Shown here: piece by piece, positions 19,198 through 25,771 of the stretch
Layout of the letters: every line of letters starts with the position of its first letter
Numbering within the stretch: the stretch's first letter is position 1
Source: Methanosarcina sp. MTP4
Lineage (GTDB): Archaea; Halobacteriota; Methanosarcinia; Methanosarcinales; Methanosarcinaceae
Reading direction: 5' to 3'
Assembly: GCF_000970045.1 (NCBI RefSeq)
Contig: NZ_CP009505.1
Location: forward strand, 2,666,001 to 2,730,000
Length of the DNA stretch: 64,000 bases
The notes under the pieces: model-generated
Database searches by the model: none
What the model saw: only the letters and a program-made list of their open reading frames with translations
What the model was told of the DNA's origin: nothing
Program-made: the position numbers and the translations under genes

Positions 19198-19528
19198 TCG
19201 GCATCCTAACAGCCCCGAAATATTAATAATTGTTTTTCCAGATAACGAAAGACTGGAGAGATAAATTGAAACATAATTATATAAATAGCGTTTAAAAAAG
19301 AGTGAATGTTATAAAGAAATTTTCAGAAAATAATTTTGACTGGAATCCAGAACCGTACTTTGCTGGTGTAAGCAAGAACCTTAATCAGGATACGGCAATC
19401 AGCAATCTTAATAAGGAAACATAGTAGGGATTCTGTAATAAGAAAACGGGATCAGCGATCTTAATCAGAAACCATATTCAGGGCACCGTAATCTCGAACA
19501 TGCAGTGTCCGTGCCCGGTCCCATAGCA
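19198..19528. other. Intergenic spacer between convergent genes
   Basis: No gene is seen. A weak direct repeat (AATCAGCAATCTTAAT and GATCAGCGATCTTAATCAG, about 19398 and 19450) is present. Transcripts of DUF2110 and msvR converge here. Confidence 0.4.
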
Positions 19529-20224
19529 TTATTTTTCCCGGACCCGGAATTCCCTGCCCAGCTTACCACAGAGGATGCCTTCGATGAGGCCTTCACTCAG
19601 GGCACAGAAAGGCTTCCCGATAACGGGCATCGACTCGGCCTTGAAAGGGTCTTCAATTAGGAGGGAAAGAGGTTCGGTTTTGAGCATGGAAAGCCTTCCG
19701 TTTCCCCCGGATTCCAGGAAGTATCCGATTTCTTCCAGGAGCCCTTCGAGGGTTTCGGACTCAAAAGCGGATGAAAGGTGGACACCAATGTCACATCCGA
19801 TCTTTTTTACAATAGGGACATTATCAATCCCGTAGGCTTCGAACCCGAAGCGTAAAGCATGGTAGACGGATTCCATAAAGGAAAAACGGTCTTTTTTCCC
19901 GTTTCTGGCAACCTTTTGCAGCAGACTGTTATAGTGTTCATGGACAGGTTTCTGGGAGCAGCCCATGTAATGAGAGGTGAGGGAATATATTTTCCGGCGG
20001 CGGTCGGCAGGATCAACCATTTCCTCTACGAGTTCGGTGGTCCTGAGGTTGTTGAGGTGTACGGAAATCGTGGACTTTGCCTTTGCCGTGTATTTTACGA
20101 TTTCATCAAATGACCTCGAATCTTCCCTGAGGAGATTGAGAATTTGCAACTTTACCGGACTGTCCACCGCAACAAGCCCGGATTCCGTGTAAAAAAATTC
20201 TGTTTTATTCTCAAGCCTTCCCAT
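19529..20224 (-). CDS. msvR: MsvR, methanogen V4R-domain redox regulator
   Basis: 231 aa. An ArsR-like winged helix (residues about 15-85: VDSPVKLQILNLLREDSRSF, then AKSTISVHLNNL and a basic wing) is followed by a V4R ligand-sensing domain. This is the layout of MsvR, a methanogen-specific repressor that senses redox state through cysteines. Cysteines are at residues 89, 144, 207 and 219. The start MGRLENK at 20224 is chosen because the promoter TATA and an MsvR-type operator lie between it and the upstream ATG at 20419, which would place the promoter inside the gene. It is divergent from pspA, 215 bp apart, and presumably autoregulated. Confidence 0.9.
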   Translation of the reverse strand: MGRLENKTEFFYTESGLVAVDSPVKLQILNLLREDSRSFDEIVKYTAKAKSTISVHLNNLRTTELVEEMVDPADRRRKIYSLTSHYMGCSQKPVHEHYNSLLQKVARNGKKDRFSFMESVYHALRFGFEAYGIDNVPIVKKIGCDIGVHLSSAFESETLEGLLEEIGYFLESGGNGRLSMLKTEPLSLLIEDPFKAESMPVIGKPFCALSEGLIEGILCGKLGREFRVREK

Positions 20225-20263
20225 AATATCTTTATATAAGTTGTTTTTTGGATATATAAAACG

Positions 20264-20279
20264 TTCGCAGGGTTGCGAA
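20264..20279. promoter_or_regulatory. MsvR-type operator TTCG-N8-CGAA
   Basis: TTCGCAGGGTTGCGAA is a perfect inverted TTCG/CGAA pair with 8 nt between, matching the published MsvR box pattern TTCG(N7-9)CGAA. It lies 40 nt before the msvR start, between two TATA-like elements, and about 10 nt upstream of the plus-strand TATA of pspA. Confidence 0.75.
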
Positions 20280-20283
20280 TAAT

Positions 20284-20303
20284 CGATATTAATATATAAA
20301 TAT
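20284..20303. promoter_or_regulatory. Shared TATA region of msvR and pspA
   Basis: ATATTAATATATAAATAT reads as a TATA-like element on both strands. On the minus strand a second TATA-like TTTATATATCC (about 20250-20261) follows the operator. On the plus strand the element is about 140 nt upstream of pspA. Assignment of transcription starts is inference. Confidence 0.5.
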
Positions 20304-20439
20304 GAAGTTATAAATTGTGAAGCTTCAGGTCCCCTTCCAAAGAAAGATCCTCCCCCGGATAGGATGAATCCCCCGGCAAAAAAATAAAAATACCAGCCTC
20401 TCCAATTAACAGGTAGCAAGAAAAAATCGGGGGGAAAAC

Positions 20440-21186
20440 ATGGGGTTAATCAACCGAATGGAAACGGTCTTCAAGTCGAAGATGAACAAAGTGCTCAACA
20501 GGATGGAAGATCCCAGGGAAACACTGGACTATTCCTATGAAAAACAACTCGAAATGCTTCAAGACGTAAAACGGGGAGTTGCCGAGGTGACCACCTCAAA
20601 AAAGCGCCTCCAGCTCCAGCGGGCAAAACTGATGCAGAGCGTGGGCAAACTTGACTCTCAGGCAAAAGACGCGGTCACGGCTGACAGGGAAGACCTTGCA
20701 AGGATGGCCCTTGAAAGGAAAGCCGCCCTCATGCAGCAGGTAGAGGGTATTGACATTGAAATCGCCGAGCTTGAGAAGCAGCAAGAAAAGCTCATTGCCT
20801 CCGAAAAGCGCCTCTCCACCAAGGTCGAGATCTTCAGGACCCGGAAAGAGTCCATAAAAGCCGGGTATTCCGCAGCTGAAGCCCAGGTCCGGATCAACGA
20901 GTCCGTAACCGGGATCAGCGAAGAGATGGCGGACGTGGGGCTTGCAATCGAGAGGGCCGAAAACAAGACAGAAGAAATGAAAGCCCGGGCAGAGGCCATC
21001 GACGAGCTCATGGAAATCGGGACCCTGGAAGACCTTACAGGCCCTCAGGACGATATCGAACGGGAACTTGCAAAAATCAGTGCCCAGACAAGCATTGAGT
21101 CCGAACTCGCCAGGCTCAAAGCCGAAGCAGGCAAAGAACCCGAAAAACCAGAAGGCAAAGAAGCAGGCAAGGGGGCAGAGAAATGA
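20440..21186 (+). CDS. pspA: PspA/IM30 (Vipp1) family membrane-stress protein
   Basis: 248 aa. PspA-fold proteins are helical ESCRT-III relatives that assemble on the cytoplasmic membrane face and maintain it under stress. The N-terminus GLINRMETVFKSKMNKVLNR and MEDPRETLDYSYEKQLEML is diagnostic, followed by continuous coiled coil to about residue 220 and a charged Lys/Glu/Pro/Gly tail. ATG at 20440 follows AAAAAATCGGGGGGAAAAC with a good GGGGGG Shine-Dalgarno. The stop overlaps the start of the next gene (pspAA) by 4 nt, so the two are co-translated. The divergent msvR may control it through the operator at 20264. Confidence 0.93.
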   Translation: MGLINRMETVFKSKMNKVLNRMEDPRETLDYSYEKQLEMLQDVKRGVAEVTTSKKRLQLQRAKLMQSVGKLDSQAKDAVTADREDLARMALERKAALMQQVEGIDIEIAELEKQQEKLIASEKRLSTKVEIFRTRKESIKAGYSAAEAQVRINESVTGISEEMADVGLAIERAENKTEEMKARAEAIDELMEIGTLEDLTGPQDDIERELAKISAQTSIESELARLKAEAGKEPEKPEGKEAGKGAEK

Positions 21187-21461
21187 TAATCAGGATTATG
21201 GGCGAGGGACAGTTCCGGGTGCCTGCAGCCCTCTACGACGAACTGAACATGTTGGACAATCGCATAGTGGACTTTGTGGCCGAAGGGAAAGCCGGAGAGT
21301 TCAGAAGCGAACTTGAAAAGCTGGTCGCCATGATCAGGGCAAAAGGAACCGAAGTAGCGGCGGAAGAAATCGTGGAATCGGACATCATCGTGCCCCCGGA
21401 AGACCTCAGCCTTGAAGAAGCAAAAGAAGTGTTTACGGGGACCGGGATTTTCGAGGATTGA
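21183..21461 (+). CDS. PspAA, PspA-associated small protein
   Basis: 92 aa. It matches the PspA-associated domain A (PspAA) found immediately after pspA in archaea and actinobacteria: MIIRIMGEGQFRVPAALYDE, then LNMLDNRIVDFVAEG and the C-terminal DIIVPPEDLSLEEAKEVFTG. ATG overlaps the pspA stop (ATGA). Its biochemical role is not known; association with PspA is inferred from conserved gene order. Confidence 0.88.
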   Translation: MIIRIMGEGQFRVPAALYDELNMLDNRIVDFVAEGKAGEFRSELEKLVAMIRAKGTEVAAEEIVESDIIVPPEDLSLEEAKEVFTGTGIFED

Positions 21462-21758
21462 AACACAGCATCTTCTGATTCGGCTTTCAGGATTATGGAT
21501 CTCAGAGGTACAGCCCTTAGAGGTGCAGCTTCCAGAATACTTTAGATATATACACCACAGGAGCAGTTGCCAATGACACGTGGGCAACTGCTAATGATGT
21601 GGAAGCAACTTTAAAAATCAAGCTGCTGCTCCTCAGGAATCAAAACAAATAGGGATAGAAAAATAGAGAAAGAAAAATAGAGAAAGAAAAATAGAGAAAG
21701 AAAAATAGAGAAAGAAAAATAGAGAAAGAGAAAATTAGAAGGCTTCAGGAGTCCACAG
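21462..21758. repeat. Spacer with 14-bp tandem repeat, 5 copies
   Basis: Five exact copies of AAAAATAGAGAAAG at about 21658-21730. The spacer separates the convergent pspAA and universal stress protein genes. On the minus strand the array reads as a series of T/C tracts after the uspA stop and could act in termination. Confidence 0.8.
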
Positions 21759-22196
21759 TCAACGCACAACAATTACCGGAACTTTTGAGTGCCGAACAAC
21801 ATTCTCTGCCACACTGCCGATAAGGAACCTTTTAATTCCTGTCAAACCCTGTGTGCCCATCACTATCAGGTCAATACCGTTTTTCTCTGCATAGTCAAGG
21901 ATTTGTTCGGCAGGGCTACCTTTCAGCAATACCAGCTCCACCTTGACTTCAGCTCCTTTTCCGGCTTTTTCAACATCTGCAGTCGCAAGTTCCCCTCTAT
22001 CAGTCAGATATTCCTCAAAAGGTTCGGCCCAGCCCATAACTTTTCCCGAAACTTTTGCATGCTCATCGGAAACGACGTACACAGCGTACACTTCAGCACC
22101 GCTTACCTTCGCAATATCTATTCCATGAGAAACAGCTCTTCTGGCGTTTTCCGAACCATCAGTTGCAATCAGGATTTTTTTGAAAAGATTCCCCAT
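21759..22196 (-). CDS. Universal stress protein (UspA family)
   Basis: 145 aa, single Usp domain. N-terminal FKKILIATDGSENARRAVSH with the conserved Asp, and the ATP-binding loop MGTQGLTGIKRFLIGSVAE, which fits G-x2-G-x9-G-S, so it is an ATP-binding member. Such proteins are dimeric and accumulate under stress, but the molecular function is usually unclear. It lies between the pspA operon and a lipoprotein gene in a stretch rich in envelope-stress genes. Confidence 0.93.
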   Translation of the reverse strand: MGNLFKKILIATDGSENARRAVSHGIDIAKVSGAEVYAVYVVSDEHAKVSGKVMGWAEPFEEYLTDRGELATADVEKAGKGAEVKVELVLLKGSPAEQILDYAEKNGIDLIVMGTQGLTGIKRFLIGSVAENVVRHSKVPVIVVR

Positions 22197-22430
22197 CGTA
22201 TATCAACTCCACCTAATTATGTAATATAAAATATGGAGTTATTACTATTAAAATTTCATCCCGGAGGGTCTGATTTCTGCAATAAAGGACTCAAACAATT
22301 GATAATAAAAAATGAGACACATGTAAAATTAATACATAAAAACAGTACCGTAAAACTACGAATTGAATTGAAGTTTAGGCAAGAAATATATTCATTCGGG
22401 GACAAGCGAAGGTCAATAAAGGAGGATGAC

Positions 22431-23642
22431 ATGAATTACAGATTCCTGACAAAATTGTTTACATTGACACTGATTTTAGTCCTGCTTTCCTTCAGCGGTT
22501 GCGTTGATACCAATGAAGAGGAAGATACACTGGAAAATGAAAACAGAGAACCTGTCGAAGCTTTCGTATACGGAACTGCCCCCGTGGAAGAAGTGCATGT
22601 CGAGATGAAAAAGACGGTAATCCCGCCCGAAATAAGCATCTCCGTAAAAGGTAACCTGCCCGACGGCTGCACCGGGATTGACCTGAAGAACATCACGATG
22701 GAAAAGGAAAACGGGAACATCACAATCGGAATACCCACTATAAGGCCTGCCGATACGGTCTGTACCGAAGCCCTGGTGCCTTTCGAAGAAAAGATCCCGC
22801 TTGATGTTGAAGGCTTTGAGGTCGGCAACTATACGGTATCCGTAAATGGGATCGAAACAAGCTTTGAACTTACTGCTTACGACATCGTGACCCCGGACGA
22901 AACCTACGCTCCCGGAAAAGCGGCTGTTGAGGACGTAACGGTAATAATGACAAGGTCCATTCCTCCGCATGTAAGGGCAGTGGTCTCCGGGATGCTTGCC
23001 GGAAACTGTGAAAGGATCGATGTCGGAAACATATCAATCGAAAAGCAGGACCGGGTAATCCTCGTGGAGCTTCCAACCCTGAGCCTGACAAACGCTCCCT
23101 GCACCATGAACCTGGTACCCTTTACGGAGTACATCCCTATCAACATCGAGGGCCTTGAACCGGGAGAATACACAGTCTCGGTAAACGGGGTAAACGGCAC
23201 CTTTGTCCTGGGTGATTACGGAGTTCCTTCAGAGCTATCCGAGCCATCCGAGCCATCCAAACCCTCAGAGAGTGTTTCAGGTGAAGATGCGGAAACTTAC
23301 GGGCTTATTGAAGGAAACATCCTCTTTGAAGACCTTGAAGAAACGATCGAAGAAGTTACTGTTTACATCCGGCTTGATGATGTAAGTCTTGCGGATGCCC
23401 CTTCTACAGTGATCTCGGAGAACGTTATTGAAAATGTGTCGGTGAGCCCGGAAGAAAATAAAGTTCCTTTCACCCTTGGCTTCCCGGAACTTGTGGCAAA
23501 CAGGACGTATTCACTCTATGTCCATGTAGATGTTGACGGAGACGGGAAAGTCTCAAAGGGAGACTACGTAACCACGATGCACAACGGTGTACCCACCGAC
23601 CAGGACACGGTAAATATGGACGTGACGGTTGAACGCGTATAA
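22431..23642 (+). CDS. Lipoprotein with two tandem domains and a YbaY/YscW-like C-terminus
   Basis: 403 aa. Signal peptide with lipobox (LLSFSGC). Two homologous domains of about 100 residues follow (residues about 50-140 and 150-240), each with a conserved Cys pair (PDGCTGIDLKNI / DTVCTEALVPFEEK and GNCERIDVGNI / APCTMNLVPFTEY) and ending GNYTVSVNG or GEYTVSVNG. After a Pro/Ser linker (SEPSEPSKPSES) the C-terminus resembles the YbaY/YscW lipoprotein domain (VTVYIRLDDVSLADAPSTVI) and has a calcium-loop-like DVDGDGKVSKGD. ATG at 22431 follows AAAGGAGGATGAC; upstream in-frame ATGs have no such site. Function unknown. Confidence 0.8.
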   Translation: MNYRFLTKLFTLTLILVLLSFSGCVDTNEEEDTLENENREPVEAFVYGTAPVEEVHVEMKKTVIPPEISISVKGNLPDGCTGIDLKNITMEKENGNITIGIPTIRPADTVCTEALVPFEEKIPLDVEGFEVGNYTVSVNGIETSFELTAYDIVTPDETYAPGKAAVEDVTVIMTRSIPPHVRAVVSGMLAGNCERIDVGNISIEKQDRVILVELPTLSLTNAPCTMNLVPFTEYIPINIEGLEPGEYTVSVNGVNGTFVLGDYGVPSELSEPSEPSKPSESVSGEDAETYGLIEGNILFEDLEETIEEVTVYIRLDDVSLADAPSTVISENVIENVSVSPEENKVPFTLGFPELVANRTYSLYVHVDVDGDGKVSKGDYVTTMHNGVPTDQDTVNMDVTVERV

Positions 23643-23749
23643 GCACCAAAAAACCGATAGAAAACCGTCGGGAACTAAGGAAAAGGAAATTTCAGGATTT
23701 GAAAGGTCAAAAAGGAGCTAAGGAGCAGGAAATTTCAGGATATGGAAAA

Positions 23750-24376
23750 TTAGAAGGGAATTCCCCACAGAGGATACCATTTTTCCACATCTTTTTCAAT
23801 GGGGAGTTCCCGCTCCATCCCTGTCCTGAGCCTGAATTCCATTGGAGTATCCCTTTTCTTTCCCGCAAGCGGCACAAAAGGATAATAACTGCCCTGCTTG
23901 AAATTGTAGATCCAGTAAACCACTTTTTTGCCGGTATGCCTCCCGGCTTCCGGACCTTCGACCTTACCTTCACCCTCACTCTCACCCTCAAAACGGTAGA
24001 TTGCACAGAGAAGCTGCTTCCCAAACCCTTGTTCCTCAAGGGTCTGGCTTACCAGGTGGATGTTTGCGACCAGGTCTTCGAAGTCAGGGTCTTTGAAAAT
24101 TGCCCAGAGAAAATTGTATTCGTCTTTTTCAAGCCGGAATTCGGTCCCGGTTTCTTTTGCGCCGTATTCCAGAAGTTCCTCAATCTCTTTCCGGGCGCTG
24201 GTGTAGGCGGAAGCTTCGATGGGCTTAAAGCAAATCCCCGCCTTTCCTGAAGGTTCCAGGCCCATACTGGTTTCCAGGGTGATGCTGGCCGTGGAGACCG
24301 CAAAAAGCTTGTCAGGCCGTGATTTAGGAAGGCTGCTCCTACCAAGGACGGCATCCACGAAATCCTTTAGCCCCAT
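23750..24376 (-). CDS. PspAB, HtpX-linked PspA-associated protein
   Basis: 208 aa. It matches the PspAB family (PspA-associated domain B), recognised by MGLKDFVDAVLGRSSLPKSR, then AGICFKPIEASAYTSARKEIEELL and YPFVPLAGKKRDTPMEFRL. In other archaea and in actinobacteria this gene sits beside htpX, as here (92 bp downstream of it on the same strand). No catalytic residues are evident. It links the HtpX protease to the PspA membrane-stress response, although nobody has shown the mechanism as far as I know. Confidence 0.85.
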   Translation of the reverse strand: MGLKDFVDAVLGRSSLPKSRPDKLFAVSTASITLETSMGLEPSGKAGICFKPIEASAYTSARKEIEELLEYGAKETGTEFRLEKDEYNFLWAIFKDPDFEDLVANIHLVSQTLEEQGFGKQLLCAIYRFEGESEGEGKVEGPEAGRHTGKKVVYWIYNFKQGSYYPFVPLAGKKRDTPMEFRLRTGMERELPIEKDVEKWYPLWGIPF

Positions 24377-24468
24377 TTTAGTTCAACTCTCCCATCTTCC
24401 ACCTCTTCCTCATCTTCCTCACCTTCTTCTCCTCTCCTCGCCTTTCCCATCTTCCCTCTTTCGCTTAT

Positions 24469-25347
24469 TCAGGCCAACTCCTTCTGGATCTTCTCAAGGG
24501 CTGCAAGCCGCTGTTCCACCGGAGGATGGGTGGAAAAGAGGTTCATGAACGAAGAGCCGGAAAGGGCCGGGATAATGAAAAAGGCATTCATCCCCTCGAC
24601 CTTCCGGAGGTCTTCCGTGGGGACTTTTTGCATCACCCCGCTGATTTTCATCAGGGCGGAAGCCAGGTTCGAAGGCTGCCCCGTGATAACTGCCGAGCCC
24701 CGGTCTGCGGAAAACTCCCGGTAGCGGGAAAGAGCACGGATCAAAAGGAAACTGAGCAGCCAGACTCCCAGGGAGACGAGCCAGACCAGAAGAATGCTCC
24801 CACCGTTCCGCCTCTGCCCCCCACTTCCGAAGTAGAGGCTGTAGCGGACAAAATAGAACGCTATGGTAGAAATAAAACTGGCAATGGTCATAACCATCAC
24901 GTCCCGGTTCTTGACATGGCTCAGTTCGTGGGCAAGCACGGCTTCGAGTTCGGCAGGAGTCAGTTTATCCAGGATCCCGGTGGTGACTGCAACCACGGCA
25001 TTACTGGGGCTTCTGCCTGTGGCAAAGGCGTTTGGGACCGGAGTATCCACAATGGCAACCCTTGGCTTAGGGATATCGGCAATAGCACAGAGCCTCGTGA
25101 TTGTCTCGTGCAGGCGTGGAGCCTCAATTTCGGAAACAATATGAGCCCCTGTCGTCCAGAGTACCATCCTGTCCGAGTAAAAGTACTGGATTGCCATGAA
25201 AGCCCCTATAAAGAGCAGCATGAACGTGGGCGGTGCCCCGTAGTAAGAGAGAAAAACCAGGAAAAAAAGATAAACTGCCGCCAGAAGAAACATTGTAAAA
25301 AGCATCCTGCCCTGTAAACCCCAGTCCTGTTCCCATTTCCGTTTCAT
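24469..25347 (-). CDS. htpX: HtpX family membrane zinc metalloprotease
   Basis: 292 aa, M48 peptidase. Two N-terminal membrane helices (about 17-38 and 40-58) are followed by the zinc motif VLAHELSHVKNRD (HExxH), two further hydrophobic segments (about 155-175 and 188-208) and the third-ligand region EFSADRGSAVITG. The substrate-binding motif VPNAFATGRSPSNA is present. It degrades damaged membrane proteins in bacteria. It stands upstream of PspAB and near pspA-pspAA, giving the local cluster a membrane-quality-control theme. Start ATG at 25347 follows GGGGGGAAATCC on its strand. Confidence 0.95.
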   Translation of the reverse strand: MKRKWEQDWGLQGRMLFTMFLLAAVYLFFLVFLSYYGAPPTFMLLFIGAFMAIQYFYSDRMVLWTTGAHIVSEIEAPRLHETITRLCAIADIPKPRVAIVDTPVPNAFATGRSPSNAVVAVTTGILDKLTPAELEAVLAHELSHVKNRDVMVMTIASFISTIAFYFVRYSLYFGSGGQRRNGGSILLVWLVSLGVWLLSFLLIRALSRYREFSADRGSAVITGQPSNLASALMKISGVMQKVPTEDLRKVEGMNAFFIIPALSGSSFMNLFSTHPPVEQRLAALEKIQKELA

Positions 25348-25771
25348 GGATTTCCCCCCGGTTATTTTCGTGCATCCGCAATTTTGCGGATCCAGTTTTT
25401 CGTTATATTTTTGCTTATATTTTATTCTTCATCTTATTTGAACCAGAACCTCAGGAGGGTCAGGTAAACAAGTTGTAACCGCAATACCAATGTTCATATA
25501 AGTAAGCTGTAATCGCAATGTCAATGTGTATATAAATGAGCTGTAATCGCAATGTCAATGTGTATATAAATGAGCTGTAATCGCAATATCAATGTGTATA
25601 TAAATGAGCTGTAATCGCAATTACCAGAATCAAGTCATACCCGGCGATCCAACCCCCCAATCAATGAAAACACCGATATCTTTTTTATCATAAAGGAATT
25701 CAAAAGATTCAGGAAAAAATTCGAATACCTTTGTTTTTCTGATAATAAAAAATTGATTAAAGGTCCAAGCC
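25348..25771. other. Divergent promoter region with 34-bp TATA-bearing repeat
   Basis: No gene is seen. The region separates htpX from the ABC transporter and is dominated by the repeat at 25474-25622. Confidence 0.6.
25474..25622. repeat. 34-bp tandem repeat, about 4 copies, each with a TATA-like element
   Basis: Unit begins AGCTGTAATCGCAATGTCAA and ends TGTGTATATAAATG; three copies are nearly identical and the outer ones diverge. Every full copy includes TGTATATAAATG, an archaeal TATA-box-like sequence on the plus strand. It lies 150-300 bp upstream of the ABC transporter start. Confidence 0.9.

Follow-up and report, generated by a model that had tools for sequence, protein, structure and literature searches.

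A conserved msvR-pspA neighbourhood with a candidate shared promoter in the Methanosarcina lineage

In bacteria, the PspA effector is under dedicated transcriptional control by PspF, LiaRS or ClgR. The archaeal locus described here may share this principle; PspB, PspC and PspF are absent from the gene group examined, and regulation would fall to a thiol-redox repressor rather than a membrane-stress sensor. The PspA-PspAA dyad and the metallopeptidase-PspAB system have already been published [Ravi et al., 2024 (PMC11237479)], and the gene pairs PspA-PspAA and HtpX-PspAB are thus not new. Identical pairs are found here, but with pspAA and pspAB facing each other in three genera and, in a fourth, doing so beside msvR; the main text of Ravi et al. 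does not mention MsvR (PMC11237479). In Haloferax volcanii PspA is upregulated under salt stress (PMC9239133).

Two MsvR systems are among the closest described relatives. In Methanothermobacter thermautotrophicus an MsvR box region lies between msvR and the divergent fpaA operon, which encodes an F420H2 oxidase and other oxygen-defence genes; the boxes touch the promoter elements and repression has been shown in vitro (PMC3729527). The layout is similar in the locus described here, with the differences that the partner is pspA-pspAA, that there is a single inverted box and that control of the partner is only hypothesised. The MsvR of Methanosarcina acetivorans (MaMsvR, MA1458) binds such a box only in its reduced form, from which repression of its own gene was proposed; binding requires AT-rich flanks, the extent found to matter being 17 bp (PMC3729527). 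The MaMsvR C206A mutant binds DNA regardless of redox state, whereas C232A and C240A form unstable DNA complexes (PMC3729527). Isom et al. (2013) took MA1459 as the neighbour of msvR (intergenic lengths of 181 and 128 bp in their figure legend) and concluded that MsvR regulates itself only (PMC3729527). In the literature searched, in which subscription journals are little covered, no confirmed target of Methanosarcina MsvR besides itself was found, nor any report on the response of M. acetivorans pspA or msvR to oxygen, nor any paper linking MsvR to Psp.

The window, a 64,000-nucleotide stretch of the Methanosarcina sp. MTP4 genome, carries an orthologue of the M. acetivorans msvR locus, with DUF2110 on one side and the same geometry of box and TATA element (PMC3729527), and with the features listed here.

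19478-19528, minus strand: untranslated msvR tail, intact, CYGTGHGHCMFEITVP and stop (71-row MsvR alignment; full-length sister protein as modelled by AlphaFold)
19529-19531, minus strand: premature TAA codon in msvR (GAA in three sister species)
19529-20224, minus strand: msvR, ArsR-type HTH plus V4R redox regulator, truncated (NF053755, 254 bits; HTH_5; V4R)
20252-20261, minus strand: msvR TATA box, conserved, with the spacing to box and start known from the mapped promoter of M. acetivorans msvR (PMC3729527)
20264-20279, no strand: MsvR box TTCG-N8-CGAA, its distance to the msvR start fixed throughout the linked clade
20290-20314, plus strand: conserved TATA-like elements facing pspA (AATATATAAATA and TTATAAA), a candidate divergent promoter (column conservation)
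20440-21186, plus strand: pspA, PspA/IM30 family (PF04012, 85 bits)
21183-21461, plus strand: pspAA, overlapping pspA by 4 nt (PF22743, 113 bits)
21759-22196, minus strand: universal stress protein gene, usp (PF00582; synteny)
22431-23642, plus strand: fast-evolving lipoprotein (lipobox; weak YscW match below the Pfam cut-off)
23750-24376, minus strand: pspAB (PF22742, 262 bits)
24469-25347, minus strand: htpX, M48 membrane protease with HELSH motif (PRK02391, 471 bits)

All seven genes except that for the lipoprotein exceed curated profile cut-offs. The msvR product, with an N-terminal ArsR-type HTH and a C-terminal V4R domain, lies above the NF053755 (MsvR profile) cut-off of 220 bits, and PspA, PspAA, HtpX and PspAB pass theirs and are arranged as the two pairs, htpX and pspAB on the same strand with 92 nt between them. 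The PspAA archetype cited by Ravi et al., AAM04874.1, is presumably an M. acetivorans protein. The genes and positions given by an earlier sequence-only reading, including the 4-nt overlap of pspA and pspAA, are thus borne out by profile matches; its description of the two pairs as conserved is supported as well. Its YbaY/YscW-like lipoprotein does have a lipobox, whereas the YscW resemblance stays below the Pfam cut-off; and every gene that it named in a ‘complete’ Psp cluster is present, but the word is loose, archaeal Psp sets having no fixed roster. The lipoprotein gene occurs in three of the four species of the window genus, and its window branch carries 25 amino-acid and 16 synonymous changes (one outgroup species lacks the gene). 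The usp gene adjoins pspAA in Methanosarcina too. Family membership suggests a membrane-stress role for the Psp and HtpX genes of the window. Two repeats were observed in the gaps, a six-copy 14-bp repeat (AAATAGAGAAAGAA) between pspAA and usp (21647-21735) and, separating htpX from an ABC transporter operon (25474-25621), a 34-bp tandem repeat in 4.4 copies whose units (TGTATATAAATGAGC) are TATA-like.

The window gene is MsvR by descent but is truncated, which the sequence-only reading had overlooked. In an alignment of 71 MsvR rows its codon 232 is TAA where three sister species have GAA, leaving 231 codons against about 246-248 in relatives; the profile match in the genome-wide search continues past this in-frame stop, and the codons beyond it are intact, containing CYGTGHGHCMFEI. 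The untranslated tail comprises two of the three V4R cysteines studied in M. acetivorans (PMC3729527) and the last V4R strand (residues 241-246 of the full-length sister protein as modelled by AlphaFold, mean pLDDT 87.9). The two cysteines, equivalents of MaMsvR C232 and C240, are present in 66/71 and 71/71 rows; sister species have all three, the window protein that equivalent to C206 only. With these residues and the strand lost, redox control in the window genome is probably impaired. After separating from its nearest sister, the window lineage has gathered five synonymous and no amino-acid changes in msvR, so the nonsense change is either recent or a sequencing error. That it is an error and that MsvR is intact in the organism is possible if somewhat doubtful: this would account for the absence of amino-acid changes, for the intact frame of the tail and for the absence of the stop from all 94 other msvR-bearing genomes of the Methanosarcinaceae, but GAA to TAA is a substitution, whereas long-read errors are typically indels, and the genome is a single contig, 99.9% complete. 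Read-through by pyrrolysine was rejected, the stop being TAA and not TAG. Elsewhere in the family, the msvR genes of two genomes of one genus, probably Methanohalobium (to which we take genomes G028 and G029 to belong), share an in-frame TAG at codon 90 (L056:9784-10533 and L057:9701-10450), a position that is Q in relatives. The reading frame is conserved on either side of the TAG, and PylS is present; the TAG is thus a candidate for a pyrrolysine codon within a transcription factor gene.

The neighbourhood of msvR, a survey of which the sequence-only reading had proposed, was followed through 112 Methanosarcinaceae genomes, of which 95 have msvR, 69 PspAA and 71 PspAB (two of these fragmentary). 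With the two fragmentary cases left out, PspAA and PspAB co-occur in 68 genomes and each is found alone in one; both are confined to the same six genera, and pspAA is missing from 28 of the genomes with msvR. The genes msvR and pspAA are linked in 24/26 Methanosarcina genomes, in 4/4 of the window genus and in the one genome of a third genus (G004). These three linked genera group at a support of 0.999-1.0 in a FastTree tree of Trm1, DUF2110 and MsvR, and of the 31 clade genomes that have both msvR and pspA, 29 have them as divergent neighbours. In Methanolobus, Methanococcoides and Methanomethylovorans msvR is linked to psp genes in none of the 36 genomes having both systems, and pspAA is linked to pspAB in 37/37; the latter linkage is seen in 4/4 genomes of the window genus and in 1/26 of Methanosarcina. 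Only in the window genus do msvR and both psp pairs lie together. M. acetivorans (which we take G074 to be) has two loci, msvR|pspA-pspAA-usp and ABC|htpX-pspAB, which equal the window order with a single break between usp and pspAB.

Because the adjacency is kept in 29 of 31 clade genomes, the grouping of msvR with psp is not chance, and the arrangement is not restricted to this strain. The simplest history would have pspA-pspAA facing pspAB-htpX as an old convergent four-gene cluster, which was joined once to msvR in the common ancestor of Methanosarcina, the window genus and the third genus, and was later split in Methanosarcina; the tree fits one origin of the join. The cluster called ‘complete’ thus looks like a retained ancestral order, an intermediate rather than a new module. 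The proposal that membrane maintenance is tied to redox stress ‘in methanogens’ proved too broad, given the 36 genomes of other genera in which msvR and psp are unlinked and the 28 without pspAA; for the Methanosarcina lineage it is a live, unproven hypothesis. Within Methanosarcina, G076 has pspA-pspAA away from msvR and about 2.4 kb from htpX-pspAB (L139:4727-9882), apparently a re-association, and G077 and G094 carry a second pspA-pspAA pair off msvR and without an MsvR box (L141:8834-9862 and L142:8609-9644).

For M. acetivorans, MA1459 fits L042:10413-10781, a TTG-started frame on the minus strand exactly 128 bp from msvR, the match resting on this shared distance. It sits inside a 14-copy 18-bp repeat and the next real gene is pspA; MA1459 is probably spurious.

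Upstream of the window msvR is a TTCG-N7-9-CGAA box which, with AT-rich flanks, occurs once in the genome. In every linked genome read, 39-40 nt separate the box from the msvR start; its distance to pspA is variable, from 160 to 596 nt. To the right of the box lies an element that aligns without gaps in 24 linked loci and consists of ATATATAA at +12 to +20 and TTATAAA at +28 to +34; its core columns (+14 to +18 and +30 to +31) have a pair identity of 0.92, against 0.32 past +35. In 14 unlinked loci these columns do not exceed background (0.3), which points to an origin of the element in the lineage that has pspA on that side. Column conservation was used here in place of a PWM scan: a PWM built from the msvR TATA box scored the element no higher than shuffled AT-rich sequence and is not discriminating there. 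In the unlinked genera no MsvR box was found within 400-700 nt upstream of pspA at any locus examined. Apart from this element no TATA-like element upstream of pspA is conserved clade-wide; a conserved pspA-proximal promoter was rejected, conservation there being limited to the last 20-30 nt (the ribosome-binding region). The layout fits a divergent promoter overlapped by MsvR, but the element may instead act as flanking DNA of the box.

Several other candidates were set aside. The bare MsvR motif is not evidence of a target (genome-wide, 224 forward-strand matches compared with 395 of the reversed control; seven in the window against 3.5 expected), and a second box at 22395, directly before the lipoprotein gene, is not conserved in sister species and was put down to chance. 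A bacterial promoter and terminator scan, aimed at the wrong promoter type, gave chance-level results. Elsewhere in the family, a half-eroded MsvR box (TTCGCTGTTGTATAAA) stands beside an intact msvR in G005, which has lost its psp genes (L061:4340-4420), and the msvR loci of Methanomethylovorans and similar genomes (L203, L212, L216, L219, L221 and L058) have no canonical TTCGN7-9CGAA box.

We tentatively favour the reading that msvR and pspA may share an MsvR-controlled promoter in the linked clade. The locus would be the ancestral msvR and psp locus of the Methanosarcina lineage, where the existing operator of msvR gained a second, pspA-facing promoter after the join. In species with intact MsvR, the reduced protein would probably sit on the box between both TATA elements and hold down msvR and pspA-pspAA; oxidation of the V4R cysteines would release it, and the PspA membrane scaffold would be made when redox balance is lost. 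The reading is supported by the divergent adjacency inside the clade against none in the 36 genomes outside it, by a box spaced rigidly from msvR while its distance to pspA varies, by an element conserved in linked loci and at background in unlinked ones, by the want of any other TATA-like element conserved clade-wide upstream of pspA, by the single AT-flanked operator in the window genome and by pspA being the real neighbour if MA1459 is spurious. Further support comes from the upregulation of HtpX under oxidative stress in H. volcanii (PMC9263693) and from the frequency of long 5' leaders in related methanogens (PMC5378194). That the pspA-facing element is the promoter of pspA and is repressed by MsvR is inferred from these patterns; the PWM result weakens the case.

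It is also a real possibility that the genes are neighbours without shared control, MsvR regulating only itself, the AT-rich element serving as binding context and pspA having its own, weakly conserved proximal promoter. The adjacency would then go back to one rearrangement, passed on in a region whose gene order changes slowly, and the linkage is indeed a single evolutionary event in a generally syntenic stretch: the trm1-HTH-DUF2110 order on the other side of msvR persists across the family without a promoter common to DUF2110 and msvR. The need of MaMsvR for AT-rich flanks offers another reason for conservation of the element (PMC3729527), but its second part (+26 to +35) lies outside the flank found to matter, unlinked genera have the same kind of box without the element, and the proximal TATA that pspA would need was not found conserved. 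The pspA genes of other genera do without an MsvR box. The element also persists in three genomes without pspA beside msvR (G076, G104 and G005), and in G076 and G104 pspA moved, taking along a few hundred nt from its upstream side and leaving box and element behind; both are thus dispensable for pspA in these two genomes, which likewise counts against a shared promoter. A separate leader or non-coding RNA driven by the element, with an indirect or no effect of MsvR on pspA, is improbable: the distance to pspA varies widely over unconserved sequence, including the 18-bp repeat array in M. acetivorans, as such an RNA would allow, but no downstream RNA sequence is conserved in the clade past +35.

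The full chain built on a shared promoter, in which MsvR became wired to an ESCRT-III-like PspA scaffold through one join and a second promoter, oxidation directly switches on membrane repair and a recent nonsense mutation cost the window organism its redox switch, is unlikely to hold in every part.

To our knowledge, the trigger of Psp in archaea is largely not known. The locus offers a specific candidate target of MsvR, with an exact site, placed beside msvR in genetically tractable species, and the probably spurious MA1459 would explain why the 2013 study passed over pspA as the divergent target. As the link is missing in most msvR-bearing genera and many msvR-bearing genomes have no pspAA at all, a coupling of redox state to the membrane would be lineage-specific. 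If the wiring is real, the msvR nonsense mutation in the window organism is a natural test of it, and the conserved box with its clade-specific TATA-like element makes the redox-membrane link a testable hypothesis.
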